From IMG/VR virus record IMGVR_UViG_3300009151_000295, positions 1 through 28,296 of that record: 28,296 nucleotides of DNA; one strand, written 5' to 3'. Each line of letters starts with the position of its first letter. The first letter of the stretch is position 1. Of this stretch, positions 6,422 through 21,892 are shown in pieces. The position numbers were made by a program, and so were the translations under genes. The notes beneath the pieces were generated by a model, which saw nothing but the letters and a program-made list of their open reading frames with translations, was not told the origin of the DNA and made no database searches. Source of the stretch: a virus.

Positions 6422-9400
6422 ATGGCACTACCTATTGATCTTGGCTCTTTTGACCCTGGGCAAGGCGACAGTTGGGATGGCTCGCCCTTAGACGCAGTAC
6501 GCCAACAAGCACGTACAGGCGCGCAAGCAGGTTCTGATGTAGCACGCGCCATCATTGGCGGGCCTTTATCACTAATTGGCGGGGCTGCGCAAACTTTAGG
6601 GCAGGGTATAAACGCAGGGCCCGGATACTTATACCGCAAGTACGTTGAGAATGACCCTGCAGCTGCTGAAGCGTACCGCAAAGAGCGTATACCTACTGCT
6701 GAAGAAAACATCGCCAATTTGTATAAGCTACTTGGAGAGCCTGTAACAGAACAAGGCAAAAAGTTTGCATACGAAACATTGCCTGATGTTATGTCTGCAA
6801 CAGGTCTTGACAAGCTGCCCTTTCCATTTCCTGAAGCGATGGGATTACCGCGCAGAGGCTTTACGCCTAATGACCTGCGTGTTGTTGGCGCTGAAGCTTC
6901 ACGCATTGGTAAGCAAGTCCGTGATATACCAACTGACTTTGCCAATGCTAAAGCAGGCATTACACGCATTGACCCCATCACCAACGCGCCTACGCTAGGC
7001 ACCAAGCTACAAAGCGTAGCGCCTGGGTTAGATACAGTAGGCGAGTTAGGGCCTGCAGCTGGCTCTGCTGCAGCGCAAATGGGCGCTATTCGTGTGCTGG
7101 GCACTCAAGTTGCACGTGCCAAAGACCCTATGACAGGCAACTTGGCTACACCTACGCAGGCTGAGACTGCAGACTTGGGCGGGCTTACAAACTTGCAAGC
7201 GGCGCCTGTGCACACCATTGACACCAACCAGCCAAGCCGCTCAGTCTTAGGCGACTACATGACTCGGTATCTTGATACAGCTGCAATGGTTGATGCGTTT
7301 AACACGTACAATAAGCAGCGCATGATGGAGATGTACCCTGACGCAACGTCGCCTCGTGTTGCGCAACTGGCGTTTGAGTCACGTCTCGGCGGGCGATCTA
7401 GTAATGAGTACGCGGACGCTAAAGCGCAAATCATTGACGACTTTGCCAAGACACCTGAAGCTCAGCAGTTAGCCCAAGCACAAGGCACGTCATTGCCTAC
7501 TGTGGAGGACTACTTCAACAGGCATGAGGCAGGCATGAAGTGGGTTGCTAACAACCTAACTAACTACGCAAGTAAGTATGTAGGCACTGCTAATGACCCG
7601 CTTCTAAAAGCGGCCTCTGAAGGCTACACATTTAGGCCTGCAGCAGATGTGCGCAGCCAAGGCGAAGTGTCACAGCGTTTTGCAGATACTGCTCGAGAAA
7701 AAGCAGGTATGCCTGGGTCTGCGTTACAAACTGCAATTGACGCTAAGCAAGCTGAGCTTGATCAGGCAACGCAAAACCTAAATGACTTTGCACAAGCTAA
7801 TGTTGGCAACTTAGAAGCAACTAACGCGACTACGCGTATGCGAAATGCGCGTGTAAAAATAGCAAATGAGCTTGAGAACTTAAAGCTTGGCGCCATGTAT
7901 GAGAACCTTGCGGATACAGCAGTATCACCAGTAACTAAAGAGAAGTTTCTTATTGACTTAGCTTATCCTGCAAAGCAGTTCTACCCAGACGTTACGCACC
8001 CTAATGTACCGGATGCAGCAACTTTGTATACGGCAAAGCGGCTTAACGAAATAGGATTACCTGGCATTGCGCAGTCTGTGTACAACGACGTGATGCAAAA
8101 GAAAATCCCACTTGATACGCTAAGCGCAATGACTGTTGAAAAGTATGTCCGGCAAATTGCTACAAAGCGCATACAGGACGAAGCTGCCGCGGGAATTGCG
8201 CGGCAACAATATCTTACAAATGCAACCGCAGCCATTGCTGATCGCACAACCAACGACCCAGAGGCTCAGCAAATTGGCGGCCACATCTTACTTGAGACAA
8301 CTGCCAACACACCACGTAATGTTGGTGAACAGCGCGTAAGTGACGCAACCGCAGTGCTTGATATGTGCGTAGGCGAAAGTGGTAAATATATGGGCAAAGG
8401 CCCACACCCGTTTACAGGTAACGACCCCAATTACGAACCCTACCTTGACCCCATTACAGGCAACAAAAACCCTAAAGGCACAGGCTCGTTACGTAGTTAC
8501 GTTTACAACGCAATGCGCGGCGACTCCATACTTGCGCAAATTCATGATAATGAGACTAAGCTTCCTGTTGCAATGCTTGAACTACACAAGCGAGGCAGCG
8601 ATAAGTACTCATTAGGCTACGTTTCAGGCCCTACAACAAAATCAGGTGCTACCAACGGACCTATTGCTGCGCAATACCACCAAGCAATTGCTGACTACTT
8701 AAATAAGCGTGGCGATATTGCAGGTGTTGAAAGCAACTTAAGCGCAAACACAAGTGTTTTGGATACTGTGCGCAGTTCTGACGCTGCTCGTATACTAGGT
8801 TTACGCAGCGCAAATGACTTGGCAGCTGCGCACCCAGACTTGCCGCGGTTTATGACTAAAGACGCTTTGCGCACGTATGCTGCAACGCTAAAGCAAGAGC
8901 AGCAGGCTACGCCGCAACTGCCTACTGCACGCAGCACCGACACGCTGCAATCATTACAACAAGCACGGGATGTAGCTCTTCGTGATTTGAATGACTTAAC
9001 CAATACGCACCAACAAATACAGGATGCATTAGCGCATATCAATGACATTGATGCACGTATAGCCCGCATAGGAACAGACCAGCGTCTTGCCACTAACTAC
9101 TCAACGCCGTCTGAGTACAACTTTAACGACTTTGCAGGCGTGTATGGCGATGACTTGTCGCCTAATGAAAGACGCACAGGTCAAGCCGCTGTTGACTACA
9201 TCCACCATTACTTTGACGAGCAAGCGCTGCAAGACAATAGGCTATACACAAGTCAGCAAATTGGTATCCCTGCATTAGAAACAGTACTTACCTCTAACGA
9301 AGCGCAACGTGTGTTGGTTGGCCTGTCAGCCGACACACGAGACGCTGTTATAAGATACTTTAGAGAATTGCCTAGTAATGCCGACGCGTCAATGCCTCGC

Positions 9401-12955: not shown

Positions 12956-13300
12956 ATGAGCGATGACGCAATTAACATGCACAAACGTTTGGCCATGGGC
13001 CAAGCAGGCGCTGAAACACACTTAAAGCGCGGCGGTAAAGTCGCCAAGTACGCGGGAGGCGGGGCAGTGAAGAAGCCTGCTGAAGTGATGTGGGATGAGG
13101 CTTCAGGCGCTAAGCACAACACCATGGGTGCTAAGTCTGAAAAACAGTCTCAGACAGCAATTAACGACAGCAGCCAAAAGCTCCCTTACAATAAGCCCAC
13201 GGGTAAGATTGCCACCATGAAAAAAGGCGGGCATGCTAAAGGCGGATTGACTATTGCGATAGTTGCGCCTATGAAGAAGAGTGCCGGTCGAGGACGCTAA
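12956..13300 (+). CDS. Small basic Lys/Gly-rich protein (KKGG type)
   Basis: A 114-aa strongly basic protein with clusters LKRGGKVAKYAGGGAVKK (23-40) and MKKGGHAKGG (88-97), ending MKKSAGRGR. There is no membrane segment or known enzyme motif, and it is probably disordered. AGGAG lies 6 bases before the ATG. It is one base after the portal stop and overlaps the next gene. Two other proteins in the window (18098-18643 and 21347-21892) have related Lys/Gly clusters. The composition would suit binding to nucleic acid or to acidic virion surfaces; I cannot prove either. Similar short KGG-rich proteins are, from memory, frequent in structural operons of uncultured phages. Confidence 0.72.
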   Translation: MSDDAINMHKRLAMGQAGAETHLKRGGKVAKYAGGGAVKKPAEVMWDEASGAKHNTMGAKSEKQSQTAINDSSQKLPYNKPTGKIATMKKGGHAKGGLTIAIVAPMKKSAGRGR

Positions 13301-13485
13301 TGCGAATTAGCGTTCTTATAGACCTGATTAAGCAAAAGCAGTTTGAGATTGCTGATGCAATGGCGCAAGGTCATTGCTCAACTTTTGAAAGTTATTTGCG
13401 CTTAACAGGACGTCACGCAGGTTTGGAAGAAACCTTGCAGATTATCAACAACTTACTTGAAGAGGAAAAAAGAGATGACCTTTGA
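13300..13485 (+). CDS. Small helical conserved phage protein (61 aa)
   Basis: A 61-aa protein starting MRISVLIDLIKQKQFEIADA and ending LLEEEKRDDL. It is all helical in appearance. The pattern of a helix, then MAQGHCSTFESYLRLTGRHA, then a second helix is one I remember from small proteins between portal and scaffold genes in marine and freshwater phages; that is recall only. GAGGA lies 5 bases before the ATG, which overlaps the stop of the previous gene (TAATG). Its end overlaps the GroES-like start by 11 bases. Function unknown; it may assist head assembly, given its place. Confidence 0.7.
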   Translation: MRISVLIDLIKQKQFEIADAMAQGHCSTFESYLRLTGRHAGLEETLQIINNLLEEEKRDDL

Positions 13486-13894
13486 TGCAGAGCAAACGCT
13501 TGAAGAAGCGTTTCCAGTAATCGATCCACTTATGGCGCCGTACGGTGCTCGTGTTCTCGTGCAATTGAGAGCAGTAAAAGATAAGGTGACGAGTTCTGGC
13601 ATTTACATCCCAGAAGAATCGAAAGAAACCGAGAAGTGGAATACCATGATCGGTAAAGTCTTGGCTGTTGGACCTATTGCGTTCAAAAAGCGAGACACTA
13701 TGGAACCATGGCCTGAAGGCGTGTGGTGCCAAGTTGGTGATTACGTTCGCGTGCCAAAGTGGGGCGGCGATCGCTGGGAGATTGACTTTGAAGATGGCAG
13801 CGCAAAAGGCAAGGCGCTGTTTACGTTCTTTAATGACCATGAGATTATTGGCCGAGTGACAGGCGATCCCAGGGCTATTAAAGCTTTCATCTAA
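13475..13894 (+). CDS. groES: GroES-like co-chaperonin (Cpn10)
   Basis: A 139-aa homologue of bacterial GroES, the cap that closes the GroEL folding chamber. YGARVLVQLRAV (23-34) corresponds to the first strand of the Cpn10 barrel. Residues 36-57 correspond to the mobile loop, with SGIYIP (41-46) in the position of the GroEL-binding GGIVL. MIGKVLAVGPIAF (58-70) matches the next conserved strand, and VGDYVRVPKWGG (87-98) the VGDxV motif. At 139 aa it is longer than bacterial GroES (about 97), with extra residues at the N terminus and C-terminal region. I chose the ATG at 13475 because GAGG precedes it by about 8-9 bases; an upstream TTG in frame is less likely. Placed just before the scaffold gene, it probably helps host GroEL fold the capsid protein, as T4 gp31 does. 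Confidence 0.85.
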   Translation: MTFDAEQTLEEAFPVIDPLMAPYGARVLVQLRAVKDKVTSSGIYIPEESKETEKWNTMIGKVLAVGPIAFKKRDTMEPWPEGVWCQVGDYVRVPKWGGDRWEIDFEDGSAKGKALFTFFNDHEIIGRVTGDPRAIKAFI

Positions 13895-13912
13895 GTTTTG
13901 AAAGGAAAACTT

Positions 13913-14905
13913 ATGACATCTACAGATAAAATGGAAATGCAAGTGTCTGAAGACCAAGATGGCAGCGCAGTTGTCACTTTGCCTGATGCTATTGCATCTC
14001 CGCAAGCAAATACTGATTCGTTGATGCACTCAGATGACTCAAGCACCAACGATATGGATAGTCCATCACAACAAAATGATGGGCTGGACCACGACCCTAA
14101 CAGAGAGGCCATTCGAGCCGCTCGACGTGAGGAACGAAAGCTAAAAAAGCAACTTCACCGTGAAAAAGCACGTGAATCTTCGCATTTAGTTAACGCTTTA
14201 CGGCAGCAAAATCAGTCTTTATCAGAGCGCATTGCCCATATTGAGCAACGTACATCAGGCGCCGAGCTTGCACGTGTTGATAAGGCCATTGAAGATGCCG
14301 GCGTGCAGGTTGAGTACGCTAAAATGAAGATGCAAAATGCTGTTGAGTCCAAGGATGGGCACGGCGTAACGTCTGCGCAAGAAATGTGGTTTGAAGCGCA
14401 GCGCAAGTTGGAGTCTTTGACCAGCTTAAAGCATCAAGCTACAAAGCAAATGTCGCAGCCTGCGCAAAACATTACGCAGCCCGACCCTGTTGTCAAAAGA
14501 ATGGCTACTGAATGGATGGAAGACAACCCATGGTACGACCCAAGCGGTAAGAATGAGGAGTCTCAAATTGCCCAAGTCATTGACAAACGCCTTACAAGTG
14601 AAGGCTATGACCCAACATCTGAAGATTATTGGGAAGAACTTACAGATCGTTTGCAAAAGTATATTCCCACAGCTCAAAAACAGGGGTATAATGACTCCGG
14701 TACTCGAACGCAAAGGCCCAGGTCTGTTATGACAAGTTCAGGACGTGAAACCACAGCAACTACTAGATCGAATGAATTTCGATTAAGCCCTCAGCGCGTA
14801 TCTGCGATGAAAGAGGCAGGTTTGTGGGAAAATTCAGAACTTAGGCAGAAAGCCATTCGCAACTACGCTGAATGGGACCGCAGTAACAAGACTAGGAGCG
14901 CATAA
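13913..14905 (+). CDS. Capsid scaffold-like protein
   Basis: A 330-aa protein with the usual features of a scaffolding protein: an acidic, probably disordered N terminus (residues 10-62), a highly charged coiled-coil centre (REAIRAARREERKLKKQLHR, and AIEDAGVQVEYAKMKMQN), and a basic C-terminal region. ATG at 13913 has AAAGGA 6-7 bases upstream; an in-frame TTG at 13898 is rejected. Residues 13-25 (EDQDGSAVVTLPD) match residues 41-53 of the portal. It precedes two small structural genes and the major capsid gene, the classic place for a scaffold. It would build the procapsid core and leave before or during packaging. No protease domain is visible. Confidence 0.72.
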   Translation: MTSTDKMEMQVSEDQDGSAVVTLPDAIASPQANTDSLMHSDDSSTNDMDSPSQQNDGLDHDPNREAIRAARREERKLKKQLHREKARESSHLVNALRQQNQSLSERIAHIEQRTSGAELARVDKAIEDAGVQVEYAKMKMQNAVESKDGHGVTSAQEMWFEAQRKLESLTSLKHQATKQMSQPAQNITQPDPVVKRMATEWMEDNPWYDPSGKNEESQIAQVIDKRLTSEGYDPTSEDYWEELTDRLQKYIPTAQKQGYNDSGTRTQRPRSVMTSSGRETTATTRSNEFRLSPQRVSAMKEAGLWENSELRQKAIRNYAEWDRSNKTRSA

Positions 14906-15438
14906 TGGATGATCGTTTGAAAAGAAATACTCGTGCAGGCCGTGAAACACGTGCGGATGATGATGCATCGCGTCGTCCGCCTGAAGAACAGTTTGTATCG
15001 TCTGAGGAACGCCGTAGGGCATTCCGTTCGGAGTGGCTGCAAGAAGCGCTTCCGACCCCACCCGAGATTCCGGGTTTTCATTTGTGCTGGCTTTCTACTA
15101 CCAACCAGTATGACCCCATCCATAAACGTTTACGACTAGGCTATATGCCTGTGAAAGCCGAAGAAGTGCACGGCTTTGAGACTTATAGAGTCAAGTCAGG
15201 TGAACATGAAGGATTTGTCGCGTGCAACGAGATGATTTTGTACAAACTACCCGAGGACGTCTACCAGGACCTAATGGCAGAAATGCATCATTACGCCCCA
15301 TTGGACGAACAAGAAAAGGTGCAAGTTCAACAAGAGCAAATGCTCGGTGCAAAAGATAGTCGGGGTAAGCCGCTGGTTATGATTGAAGGCGACGGCATGA
15401 AGTTTGACCAAACCGCAAAAGTGCCCGTATTTGGGTAA
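14905..15438 (+). CDS. Hypothetical head-module protein (177 aa)
   Basis: A 177-aa protein whose start overlaps the scaffold stop (TAATG), with AGGAG 6 bases upstream. The first 45 residues are very basic (MDDRLKRNTRAGRETRAD, RRRAFRSEW). The middle is a compact alpha/beta region (GFHLCWLSTTNQYDPIHKR, GYMPVKAEEVHGFETYRV, GFVACNEMILYKLPED). The C terminus is Glu/Gln-rich. I do not recognise a named family, but proteins with an LCW...TNxYDPIxxR pattern next to scaffold genes are known to me from other phage genomes. The position between scaffold and decoration genes suggests a role in head assembly; no function is assigned. Confidence 0.72.
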   Translation: MDDRLKRNTRAGRETRADDDASRRPPEEQFVSSEERRRAFRSEWLQEALPTPPEIPGFHLCWLSTTNQYDPIHKRLRLGYMPVKAEEVHGFETYRVKSGEHEGFVACNEMILYKLPEDVYQDLMAEMHHYAPLDEQEKVQVQQEQMLGAKDSRGKPLVMIEGDGMKFDQTAKVPVFG

Positions 15439-15456: not shown

Positions 15457-16032
15457 ATGAGTGCTACCTCTGCTCCGTTCGGTTTGCGCCCCGCGTTTCA
15501 TCCTTCGGGTCTGGATCGCGCGCAAGCGCTTACCAACGGCATTACGTCGGGCTACGGCTCGAACATTCTCAAAGGTCAACCTGTACAATACAGTGCGTCC
15601 GCTGGCGTTATCATTATCGCCACCGTAGGCGCTGTTTGGTCCGGTGCTTTTCAAGGCGTTGAGTTTACTGACACAACTGGCCGTCGTCGTGTTTCCAATT
15701 ACTGGCCTGCCAGTACTGCAGGCACTAACATCATTGCGTATTTCTACAATGACAACAACATTGTCTATGAAATTCAAACCGATGCTACCATTGCGCAAAC
15801 CTCTATTGGTAATGAGTACAACTTCTCCGCCATCGCTGCAGGTTCTACCACCACCGGTTTGTCGCAATGCACCTTGGGTGTTTCGACTGCTGTAGGCAAT
15901 GGCAACCCCGGCGACATGCGTGTCGTTGATATTGGCGCTTACCCTGACAATGCTTGGGGTGATTCATATGTTATCGTTCGAGTTGTGAACCCACGTTCTC
16001 AGTTCTTCGGTACCTTCAACGCTATTGCATAA
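15457..16032 (+). CDS. Capsid decoration-like structural protein (191 aa)
   Basis: A 191-aa protein starting MSATSAPFGLRPAFHPSG, with a typical strong AAGGAG 5 bases before ATG. It is rich in Gly, Ala, Thr and Ser with many short beta strands, for example GVIIIATVGAVWSGAFQGVE, the look of a capsid surface or cement protein. It is immediately upstream of the major capsid gene, with only 12 bases between, so the two are likely made together at a high level. Decoration or head-stabilising role is inferred from place and composition; it could also be a minor capsid protein. Confidence 0.68.
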   Translation: MSATSAPFGLRPAFHPSGLDRAQALTNGITSGYGSNILKGQPVQYSASAGVIIIATVGAVWSGAFQGVEFTDTTGRRRVSNYWPASTAGTNIIAYFYNDNNIVYEIQTDATIAQTSIGNEYNFSAIAAGSTTTGLSQCTLGVSTAVGNGNPGDMRVVDIGAYPDNAWGDSYVIVRVVNPRSQFFGTFNAIA

Positions 16033-16044
16033 GGAGAATAAACA

Positions 16045-16959
16045 ATGGCTGCACCAATGAGAAGTACGGACTTCCGAAGCATCGTCGAGCCCATCCTCAA
16101 CGAAGCATTTGATGGAGTTTACGACCAACGCGCCGATGAATGGTCCACGGTATTCCGTGAGCAATCTGGCATCCCTCGCAACTACCACGAAGAACCTGTC
16201 TTGTACGGATTTGGCGCTGCTCCGCAATTGCCGGACGGCTCGCCTGTTTCTTACCAACAAGGCGGCGTACTCTTCTTGCAACGCTACGTCTATCAAGTGT
16301 TTGGTCTTGCTTTTGCATTGACTAAAGTCTTGGTTGAAGACGGCGACCACATCCGTATCGGTCAAGTTTATGCTAAGCATTTGGCACAATCTCTGGTGGA
16401 AACCAAAGAACTGCTTTGCGCTAACATCTTAAACCGCGCTTTCAATAGCTCTTATACTGGTGGTGATGGCGTTTCTTTGAGCAACTCTGCACACCCCATT
16501 GCAGCTGGTTCGTTTAGCAACTTGCTGTCTACAGCAGCTAACTTGAGCCAAACTTCTTTGGAGCAGATGCTTATCCAAGTTCGTCAAGCAGTTGACAACA
16601 ACGGTAAGAAAATCCGTCTCCAACCTGTGAAGCTGGTTGTTGCGCCTGGTAATGTGTTCCAAGCTGAAGTGCTGTTGAAGTCTGTCCTGCGTGCAGGTAC
16701 TGCTAACAACGACATCAACCCGATCAAATCGATTGGCTTGCTGCCTGAAGGCGCATCTGTTATCAGTCGTTTAACTTCTGCCACCAACTGGTGGGTACAA
16801 ACCGACGCGCCTGAAGGCTTGAAGCTGATGATGCGTCGTGCTTTGGAGAAGACCATGGAAGGTGACTTCGAAACCGATAGCATGCGCTATAAGGCTACCG
16901 AGCGTTACATTCCTAACTGGACTGACCCACGCAGCGTGTACGGCACACCTGGCGTATAA
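16045..16959 (+). CDS. Major capsid protein
   Basis: A 304-aa protein that would form the icosahedral shell. The N terminus (MRSTDFRSIVEPILNEAFDG), the central EEPVLYGFGAAPQLPDGSPV region, the long helix with GDHIRIGQVYAKHLAQS, and a C-terminal PNWTDPRSVYGTPG resemble HK97-fold major head proteins of podovirus-like phages. Length (about 300 aa) fits the fold without a protease-cleaved delta domain. AAGGAG stands 8 bases before ATG. A strong terminator follows the gene, as is common after the most highly expressed structural gene. HK97-fold assignment is by pattern and position; a structure model would confirm it. Confidence 0.85.
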   Translation: MAAPMRSTDFRSIVEPILNEAFDGVYDQRADEWSTVFREQSGIPRNYHEEPVLYGFGAAPQLPDGSPVSYQQGGVLFLQRYVYQVFGLAFALTKVLVEDGDHIRIGQVYAKHLAQSLVETKELLCANILNRAFNSSYTGGDGVSLSNSAHPIAAGSFSNLLSTAANLSQTSLEQMLIQVRQAVDNNGKKIRLQPVKLVVAPGNVFQAEVLLKSVLRAGTANNDINPIKSIGLLPEGASVISRLTSATNWWVQTDAPEGLKLMMRRALEKTMEGDFETDSMRYKATERYIPNWTDPRSVYGTPGV

Positions 16960-18097: not shown

Positions 18098-18643
18098 ATG
18101 GCAACAAATTTTAGCCGTAAACCTAAAATGCAAACCACTGAGCCGTCTGTTGATGAGGCGAAGCTGAAAAAAGGTGGTCGTGCGCATAAAAAGCACATGG
18201 CTGATGGGGGTGTACCCATGGTTACGCCTCGAGTAACACCTGCGATGGCATCTCGTGCACGCATGATGGCCCGCCCACGCATGGCAATGCCTGTTGCTGA
18301 GCCTGCAGCGCCTCGTATGGCAATGCCTGTTGCTGAGCCTGCAGCGCCTCGTATGGCAGCAATGCCTATGCGCCCTATGAAAAAAGGTGGCGAGGCTGAA
18401 GGCAGCAAGTCTGACATGGCACAAGATAAGGCCATGATCAAAAAAGCCTTTAAGCAGCATGACACGCAAGAGCACAAAGGCGCTAAGGGCACAAACTTAA
18501 AGCTGAAAAAAGGCGGCAAAATGGCCACTGGCGGCTTGTGCGCCCCAGGCTACAAAGCTGGCGGGCATGTTAAGCACAGCGCAATGCGCATGGATTCATG
18601 CGGGCATACCCCCATGAAAAAAGGCGGCTCTTGCAGTTTCTAA
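18098..18643 (+). CDS. Basic KKGG-repeat protein with a duplicated Met/Pro/Ala segment
   Basis: A 181-aa strongly basic protein with four KKGG motifs (residues 24-27, 95-98, 137-140, 174-177), plus ADGG, ATGG and KAGG. Residues 50-92 are Met/Pro/Ala-rich and contain two exact copies of MAMPVAEPAAPR, coded by an exact 36-base tandem repeat. Cys and His near the C terminus (LCAPGYKAGGHVKH, DSCGH) could bind metal, but there is no clear finger. AAGGAG lies 6 bases before ATG. A terminator follows directly. Related in composition to the proteins at 12956 and 21347. Probably disordered and possibly nucleic-acid binding; no enzymatic motif. Confidence 0.75.
   Translation: MATNFSRKPKMQTTEPSVDEAKLKKGGRAHKKHMADGGVPMVTPRVTPAMASRARMMARPRMAMPVAEPAAPRMAMPVAEPAAPRMAAMPMRPMKKGGEAEGSKSDMAQDKAMIKKAFKQHDTQEHKGAKGTNLKLKKGGKMATGGLCAPGYKAGGHVKHSAMRMDSCGHTPMKKGGSCSF
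18281..18352 (+). repeat. Perfect 36-base tandem duplication
   Basis: Two identical 36-base units, 18281-18316 and 18317-18352, each coding MAMPVAEPAAPR. Identity at the base level, with no synonymous change, points to a recent duplication or active slippage. A partial third copy (ATGGCA) follows. Confidence 0.92.
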
Positions 18644-21346: not shown

Positions 21347-21892
21347 ATGCCGTTGCTTAAAAGCAAGTCTAAAGAAGCATTCAGTAAGAATGTTTCTGCT
21401 GAAGTCAAAGCGGGCAAGCCACAAAAGCAAGCAGTTGCCATTGCGTACTCTGTTAAGAACGCAGTTGGCAAAAAATCCGGAGGCTTGTGGGATAACATCC
21501 ATGCTAAACAAAAGCGTATTGCTGCAGGATCTGGCGAACGCATGCGCAAGCCCGGTAGCAAAGGCGCGCCAACTGCTGCGGACTTTAAAGCATCAGCAAA
21601 AACAGTCAAAATGAAAAGTGGTGGCGACCCAGTACTGTCTGTTAGTCGCGGTGAAAAACTGCCCACAAACAAAGGCGCAGGCTTAACACAAAAAGGTCGT
21701 GACAAGTTTAATAGGGCGACAGGCAGTCACCTTAAAGCTCCACAGGCAAAAGGCGGCAGGCATGATTCTTTTTGCGCACGAATGAGTGGCATGCCTGGAC
21801 CTATGAAAGACGATAAAGGTGAACCTACGCGTAAAGCTGCGTCATTAAAACGCTGGCATTGCGCTGAGGGTGGCAAAATTAAAAACTACTAG
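21347..21892 (+). CDS. Basic three-segment Lys/Gly-rich protein (DUF6496/DUF6321-like)
   Basis: A 181-aa very basic protein in three parts. Residues 1-40 contain KEAFSKNVSAEVKAGKPQKQ and AVAIAYSV, resembling a small family I recall as DUF6496. Residues 41-92 contain GGLWDNIHAKQKRIAAGSGE and RMRKPGSKGAPT. Residues 97-172 contain LTQKGRDKFNRATGSHLKAP, SFCARMSGMPGPM and RKAASLKRWHC, resembling DUF6321. The names are from memory and should be checked. The end, EGGKIKNY, again has the Gly/Lys type of the two other basic proteins. One base after the preceding stop, without a clear Shine-Dalgarno, so probably coupled. Function unknown; common in phage structural operons. Confidence 0.72.
   Translation: MPLLKSKSKEAFSKNVSAEVKAGKPQKQAVAIAYSVKNAVGKKSGGLWDNIHAKQKRIAAGSGERMRKPGSKGAPTAADFKASAKTVKMKSGGDPVLSVSRGEKLPTNKGAGLTQKGRDKFNRATGSHLKAPQAKGGRHDSFCARMSGMPGPMKDDKGEPTRKAASLKRWHCAEGGKIKNY

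Follow-up and report, generated by a model that had tools for sequence, protein, structure and literature searches.

Phage-encoded GroES is already known, and relatives of the gene described here are annotated as GroES in cultured phages. The co-chaperonin gp31 of T4 has a mobile loop of 22 residues, compared with 16 in GroES, and forms a cage that is about 8% larger; gp31 lacks the roof loops, and its client has a mass of about 56 kDa (excerpts of PMC6318259). The reason given for gp31 is that the T4 capsid protein is too big to fit the normal cage. GroES is one of the 13 core genes of the HTVC023P-type pelagiphages (excerpts of PMC9599517) and is also present in the CRP-901-type phages (excerpts of PMC10149686). 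In the 'Pervagoviridae' flavophages, Cpn10 is a core gene along with portal and structural proteins (excerpts of PMC8776804). In siphovirus B8b, Cpn10 is encoded by ORF19, shortly upstream of the tape measure gene, and GroES was described there as previously known from myo- and podoviruses (excerpts of PMC4294664). GroES has also been named among the genes of viral genomic islands (excerpts of PMC6487183), and PMC10611076 does not mention it.

The stretch of DNA analyzed here (the window) comprises 28,296 bases of the virus record IMGVR_UViG_3300009151_000295 and is a fragment of a phage genome. Its co-chaperonin gene stands beside the gene of an ordinary-sized capsid protein. The nearest annotated relatives, with 49–57% identity over 96–100% of the length, are found in the Caulobacter phages RW, RLK, KcrB and GB2A and in Manatee Spring ctpbd312, and RW and ctpbd312 have the same head module as the window. 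The HTVC023P-type pelagiphages and CRP-901-type roseophages share its gene order as well (a small ORF, GroES, a putative scaffold of about 300–350 aa, two proteins of about 150–195 aa and the capsid protein), and their GroES proteins are 27–38% identical to that of the window. What goes beyond annotation and is worth following is a strict pairing of the co-chaperonin with one capsid clade and a long distal arm of the mobile loop common to the phage proteins. No prior statement of the capsid coupling or of the common loop length was found in the open-licence literature, and earlier statements elsewhere are possible.

Identity and fold of the co-chaperonin

The ORF runs from an ATG at 13475 to a stop codon at 13892–13894 (Table 1). 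The first-pass annotation had proposed that the phage encodes a GroES-like co-chaperonin within its head module, to be checked by a Cpn10 profile search and by fold prediction, and both bear the proposal out. The Cpn10 profile PF00166 matches residues 21–105 with an E-value of 9.6e-10 and 38.8 bits, above the curated cut-off of 21.1, and PHROG 3188 (co-chaperonin GroES) matches at 8.3e-9. Twelve of the stricter NCBIfam GroES models match weakly, each under its own cut-off. The Cpn10 motifs previously picked out by eye (SGIYIP, KVLAVG and VGDYV) are all present in the ORF. Compared as a single sequence with solved structures, the protein matches Chaperonin 23 of 7ekq best (E 5.7e-5). When a profile built from 61 phage relatives was run against PDB sequences, the 18 best matches were all GroES/Cpn10 chains, including E. 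coli GroES at 3.2e-8; gp31 was absent from these matches at an E-value of 10.

The window gene is under purifying selection, with NG86 dN/dS values of 0.04–0.05 in the three of 12 pairs for which dS could be computed, and it has 343 relatives in viral contigs. A chance ORF is ruled out by the profile match, these relatives and these dN/dS values. In a tree with phage Cpn10, ten cellular sequences are set apart, the branch having a support of just 0.111, too low to argue for separate origins of the phage and cellular proteins.

The AlphaFold2 model of the co-chaperonin, built on an alignment of 61 diverse relatives, has a pLDDT of 86.9 and a pTM of 0.82 and shows the GroES beta-barrel. The lowest confidence in the interior of the chain falls on the mobile-loop blocks (75 for residues 31–40 and 74 for residues 41–50). 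In a VIA-align comparison, the first 16 rows are all GroES, Cpn10 or gp31 chains, row 14 (7ekq_R) being a Cpn20 co-chaperonin. The top match is 8wuc, with a Z-score of 9.2, an rmsd of 3.6, 94 aligned residues and 29% identity, followed by human mitochondrial Cpn10 (4pj1, Z 8.8), M. tuberculosis Cpn10 (Z 8.7), E. coli GroES (1aon_O, Z 7.6) and T4 gp31 (Z 7.5 and 6.5), which shares the fold as a phage-encoded co-chaperonin. From Z 6.1 downwards, the matches are mainly dehydrogenases and reductases. A plain Foldseek search was weak, returning gp31 alone at 3.3e-3 and nothing under 1e-3. In a library of viral models, the top matches are uncultured-virus proteins named GroES, with E-values down to 1.8e-16.

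Table 1 Positions of the head-module genes and of the co-chaperonin segments in the window
Feature	Position	Strand	Basis or remark
Terminase large subunit, 475 aa	3709..5136	+	PF03237 E 2e-22, PF17289 E 3.5e-9
Portal protein, 834 aa	10450..12954	+	PHROG 1216 portal E 5.3e-10
Lys/Gly-rich ORF, 114 aa	12956..13300	+	No Pfam or PHROG match
61-aa ORF	13300..13485	+	Overlaps co-chaperonin start by 11 nt
Shine-Dalgarno-like AAGAGG	13460..13465	+	Sequence; upstream of co-chaperonin ATG
Cpn10/GroES-like co-chaperonin, 139 aa	13475..13894	+	PF00166, PHROG 3188, AlphaFold2 model, GroES fold
N-terminal extension, residues 1–17	13475..13525	+	No counterpart in aligned bacterial GroES; hand count
Mobile loop, residues 33–58	13571..13648	+	Distal arm exceeds that of bacterial GroES by 4 residues
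Hydrophobic tripeptide I43-Y44-I45	13601–13609	+	Within mobile loop
Roof loop, residues 67–87	13673..13735	+	Retained; 4 residues more than most aligned bacterial GroES
Putative scaffold protein	13913..14905	+	Position, charged Gln/Glu-rich composition; same-place proteins align
177-aa head-module protein	14905..15438	+	Similar-sized protein in same place in 8 phage records
191-aa head-module protein	15457..16032	+	PHROG 37556 (unknown function); similar size and place in 8 phage records
Major capsid protein, 304 aa, HK97 fold, probable client	16045..16959	+	PF10124 Mu gpT-like E 3.5e-5; PHROG head proteins

Mobile loop, roof and additional length

The window protein shares with bacterial GroES/Cpn10 the beta-barrel, the mobile loop, the roof loop, the Y/W-x-G segment and the C-terminal strand. 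It had been estimated to be about 40 residues longer than bacterial GroES, and the difference is indeed 43 residues when it is set against a betaproteobacterial GroES of 96 aa. In the alignment, counted by hand, these residues are distributed over the N-terminus (17), the mobile loop (5), the roof (4), the C-terminal hairpin (8) and the C-terminus (9). The roof segment has 22 residues in the window and 18 in 66 of 69 bacterial GroES proteins. The co-chaperonin of HTVC027P has a shorter roof and a shorter hairpin than that of the window. Unlike gp31, the window co-chaperonin keeps its roof.

In the 61-row alignment, the mobile loop ranks among the better conserved parts of phage Cpn10. A Gly occupies position 42 in 94% of the sequences (weighted), and position 43 is Ile, Leu or Val in 79, 15 and 5%, respectively. 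The loop keeps the GroEL-binding pattern of a Gly followed by a hydrophobic tripeptide. The loop of the window reads TSSGIYIP, compared with TASGIVIP or similar in the cellular GroES of metagenome-assembled genomes (MAGs) that hold related contigs. Part of the phage Cpn10 family deviates from this pattern: of 235 distinct phage proteins, 64 have Lys or Arg at the third hydrophobic position. A basic residue at this position could weaken GroEL binding. Loops with Lys in place of the hydrophobic residue (e.g. GLIKAD) form a subgroup of the capsid-seeded loci described below, such as L201, L274, L302 and L326, and may reflect a different host GroEL.

The distal arm, measured from the Gly of the loop to that of the following strand, is 18 residues long in the window, compared with 14 in bacterial GroES. 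It has 18 residues in 221 of the 235 phage proteins, 19 in 12, 17 in one and 14 in one (L095, an archaeal-virus protein), so that 233 of 235 resemble gp31 in having a longer mobile loop. Among bacterial GroES proteins, 14 residues were counted in 10 of 10 sequences and in 57 of 59 added ones (67 of 69 together), the added ones being the best-scoring matches of 90 genomes, in which odd GroES paralogues are under-sampled. The two exceptions are L522, with 16, and L504, scored as 21 after the wrong part of a long ORF had been trimmed. In a mixed set of 16 sequences (15 further MAG copies and L414), the arm has 18 residues in 14, 14 in one and 22 in one. The longer arm may alter the cage or the affinity for GroEL; by analogy with what has been suggested for gp31, it may raise the lid or tune affinity. 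The first-pass annotation had raised an altered chamber as a possible purpose; a mobile loop lengthened across the family, as in gp31, would be compatible with it, whereas the roof loop, missing from gp31, is kept.

Tandem Cpn10-like ORFs are present in one locus (L133:7002-7310 and 7295-7804), the sole one with two plus-strand matches among 331 loci scanned for ORFs of at least 55 aa. The first ORF (E 2e-8) seemingly has no mobile loop and might encode a partner subunit that does not bind, or else be a structural relic.

Head module and gene order in related phages

The co-chaperonin gene had been placed between the portal and scaffold genes, overlapping its neighbor. It does lie in that interval and overlaps the ORF upstream of it, and the portal gene is not adjacent but separated by two small ORFs of 114 and 61 aa (Table 1). 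The capsid protein, earlier put at about 300 aa, has 304. The ORF of the putative scaffold opens at a TTG at 13898, with an ATG at 13913. The AlphaFold2 model of the capsid protein has a pLDDT of 87.7, and its best structural matches are encapsulins and phage capsids, the HK97-fold matches reaching Z-scores of 13.1–15.7 among the matches listed. The model is an ordinary HK97 fold and shows no feature that would account for a special folding need. Sequence searches of solved structures gave nothing for the capsid and portal proteins and only matches to a streptococcal surface protein for the 191-aa protein (best E 9.5e-4).

A small ORF of 55–79 aa lies immediately upstream of GroES in 12 of 13 module loci (the window and 11 of 12 phage records), and none is annotated in OK172329. 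These small proteins occupy the same place, are 18–41% identical with a majority consensus of Y-x4-G-R-x2-G-L, and are at most putative homologues. Lys/Gly-rich stretches (KKGG- or KSGG-like) are common to the window ORFs at 12956-13300, 18098-18643 and 21347-21892, the last of which matches DUF6321.

By tblastn, the co-chaperonin was found in 14 phage records and the capsid protein in 21, which include all 14. Eight of the 14 co-chaperonin regions were examined gene by gene; for the other six, the tblastn coordinates put the spacing between GroES and the capsid gene at 2.0–2.3 kb. The spacing in OQ594354 is counted across the start of the record, which was taken to be circular because OL906435, of equal length, is. 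In another four records (OK172329, MW202785, MW202796 and MW202675), a gene annotated as GroES precedes that of the capsid protein. Of the 21 capsid-matching records, all but MW202604 (equal in length to MW202601) were inspected, and Cpn10 was seen in each of these 20, in 18 of them in the head module. In 12 module records, the order is GroES, a putative scaffold of about 260–350 aa, a protein of about 140–180 aa, a protein of about 180–220 aa and the capsid protein. Some of these records have additional small ORFs; in HTVC027P, for example, several separate the portal gene from GroES, and in MW202675 several precede the capsid gene.

Among the recorded hosts are Caulobacter, Roseobacter, Pelagibacter, Planktothrix, Alcaligenes and a gammaproteobacterium. 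Bacterial genome bins contain 23 related contigs; nine are in MAGs titled Betaproteobacteria (or an order or family thereof) and the rest are varied, which points weakly to a betaproteobacterial host of the window phage. Genes resembling groES also occur in unannotated records named 'Listeria phage' or 'Enterococcus phage' (OR847265, OR848861, OR846807, OR848137, OR846590 and PQ520251), which are possibly host contigs filed as phage. One record of 110,994 bases (L004, IMGVR_UViG_3300027747_000004) has two PF00166 matches about 55 kb apart; it is roughly double the length typical of this phage group and represents either a chimeric assembly or a larger phage.

Pairing with one capsid clade

Loci were gathered from viral contigs by the capsid protein alone in three scans, the best 80 of each being taken as a sample. 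Loci were kept only if 4.5 kb or more of sequence preceded the capsid gene, which left 115 of 236 distinct loci and 114 after removal of one duplicate. Cpn10 was found upstream in 40 of 40, 32 of 32 and 34 of 43 loci of the three scans, 1.8–3.2 kb before the capsid ORF. With the duplicate removed, it is present upstream in 105 of 105 loci of a core capsid clade (worst E 6.9e-11) and in none of the nine loci of a neighboring clade. Because capsid-seeded loci alone were counted, a pairing produced by fetching loci through Cpn10 was avoided.

The capsid tree contains 190 proteins, including some phage records first found by Cpn10. Because it is midpoint-rooted, the second clade is called neighboring rather than ancestral. 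The ten loci without upstream Cpn10 (the nine and L094) fall into one group of 11 with a branch support of 0.998, the eleventh member being BK063670. When the whole records of this group were searched with PF00166, MW202601 and BK063670 gave matches above the cut-off and L254 a weak one, whereas the remaining eight gave none. L254 is one of the nine neighboring-clade metagenomic records, and its match, under the cut-off, lies outside the head module. Both phage records examined have Cpn10 elsewhere in the genome; what tracks the capsid clade is therefore the copy in the head module. MW202601.1 is a siphovirus of the neighboring clade that has no head-module GroES and carries a divergent cpn10 near its SSB gene (13699-14163). 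BK063670.1, a virus assigned to Methanomicrobiales (archaea), has groS just upstream of its terminase gene (L095:1027-1383), with a short loop of the bacterial type.

As a control, the same profile was applied to loci with the T7-like capsid of Pelagibacter phage HTVC011P, and no Cpn10 was found in 80 loci, 35 of which had enough upstream DNA. PF00166 matched none of 31 control records (29 of the 80 control contigs together with P-SSP7 and HTVC011P). Used alone on 52 capsid-family records, PF00166 gave matches in 37 at an E-value of 1e-3, 34 of them over the cut-off. Of the 15 records with no match, eight belong to the neighboring clade and seven to the core clade (L073, L102, L107, L111, L201, L302 and L326); in these seven, Cpn10 was detected only by the more sensitive phage profile, the seed of which contained phage relatives.

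Pairwise distances between capsid proteins and between Cpn10 proteins are correlated over 73 loci, with r of 0.82 compared with at most 0.15 in 999 permutations. For 50 of the 73 loci, some of which were first fetched by Cpn10, the nearest neighbor by capsid protein ranks among the five closest by Cpn10. The correlation and the shared neighbors indicate that the capsid protein and Cpn10 have largely been inherited together. This capsid type probably relies on its own folding lid.

Probable partner and client, and proposed mechanism

The Cpn60 profile PF00118 has no match in the window, itself a fragment, and none in 52 records chosen as long or as lacking a head-module copy, several of which are fragments. 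PF00166 matches 15 of the 17 MAGs that hold related contigs, and ten have a cellular-type GroES scoring above 100 bits. With no phage Cpn60 found and GroES present in these MAGs, the lid most likely works with host GroEL.

With a probability of about 77%, we read the window protein as a co-chaperonin of the Cpn10/GroES family that acts as a heptameric lid on host GroEL and folds head proteins, chiefly the 304-aa capsid protein. The co-chaperonin would be made together with the head proteins and assemble as a seven-subunit ring. Its mobile loop would bind the apical domains of host GroEL, and the lid would compete with host GroES for GroEL–ATP and displace it. The folding cage would then close over head proteins, and the folded capsid protein would be let go for assembly with the putative scaffold. 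The major capsid protein is the most abundant head protein. Because the head-module lid tracks its phylogeny and because of this abundance, the capsid protein is, small as it is, the best candidate for the main client. The genes of the portal, the putative scaffold and the 177-aa and 191-aa proteins are equally near, so linkage alone cannot single it out.

The same gene could be a general replacement of host GroES, which would keep up folding capacity or retune GroEL, its place in the head operon setting only timing and dose. T4 gp31 substitutes for GroES with all E. coli clients (excerpts of PMC6318259), and in MW202601 and BK063670, both outside the core clade, Cpn10 lies away from the head genes, as would suit such a helper. 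However, a general helper has no need to stay within 1.8–3.2 kb of the capsid gene, nor to occupy the head module throughout one capsid clade (105/105) and in none of its neighbor (0/9). General replacement is therefore unlikely. The location in the head operon and the linkage to the capsid clade also speak against a decoy or regulator, that is, a phage lid that jams or redirects host GroEL, for instance to counter host proteins or defence. The longer loop might give the lid an altered affinity for GroEL, as would suit such a function, but we consider a decoy or regulator very improbable.

The permanent position amid structural genes would also suit a Cpn10 fold that has turned into a virion or assembly component, such as a portal ring or a decoration protein, and no longer works with GroEL. 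The additional N- and C-terminal tails and the first Cpn10-like ORF of L133, with seemingly no mobile loop, would fit this as well. However, conservation is comparatively high in the GroEL-binding loop, and the nearest folds are GroES proteins. A virion component is accordingly less probable still than general replacement, if not as improbable as a decoy.

GroEL–GroES is said to take clients well above 304 aa. The 304-aa capsid protein is far under this limit, and the argument of a client too large, made for T4, thus fails here. It is conceivable, at somewhat below even odds, that host GroEL–GroES is unable to fold the capsid protein of this lineage, which, though small, would depend strictly on its own long-loop lid.

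Perspectives

The capsid lineage includes widespread marine pelagiphages of the HTVC023P type, and GroES was present in every locus checked. If the capsid protein needs the lid, this locus would provide a small system, for which cultured Caulobacter phages are available, in which roles of co-chaperonins beyond chamber size can be studied, and it would give a practical hint for the expression of such capsids. If the dependence is strict, the lid would owe its effect not to size but to the shape of the chamber, the dwell time or the handover to the scaffold, and a client too big for the cage would be overturned as the general reason for phage co-chaperonins. The lid and the capsid protein would then form a co-inherited unit in phages of Alphaproteobacteria, other bacteria and cyanobacteria.
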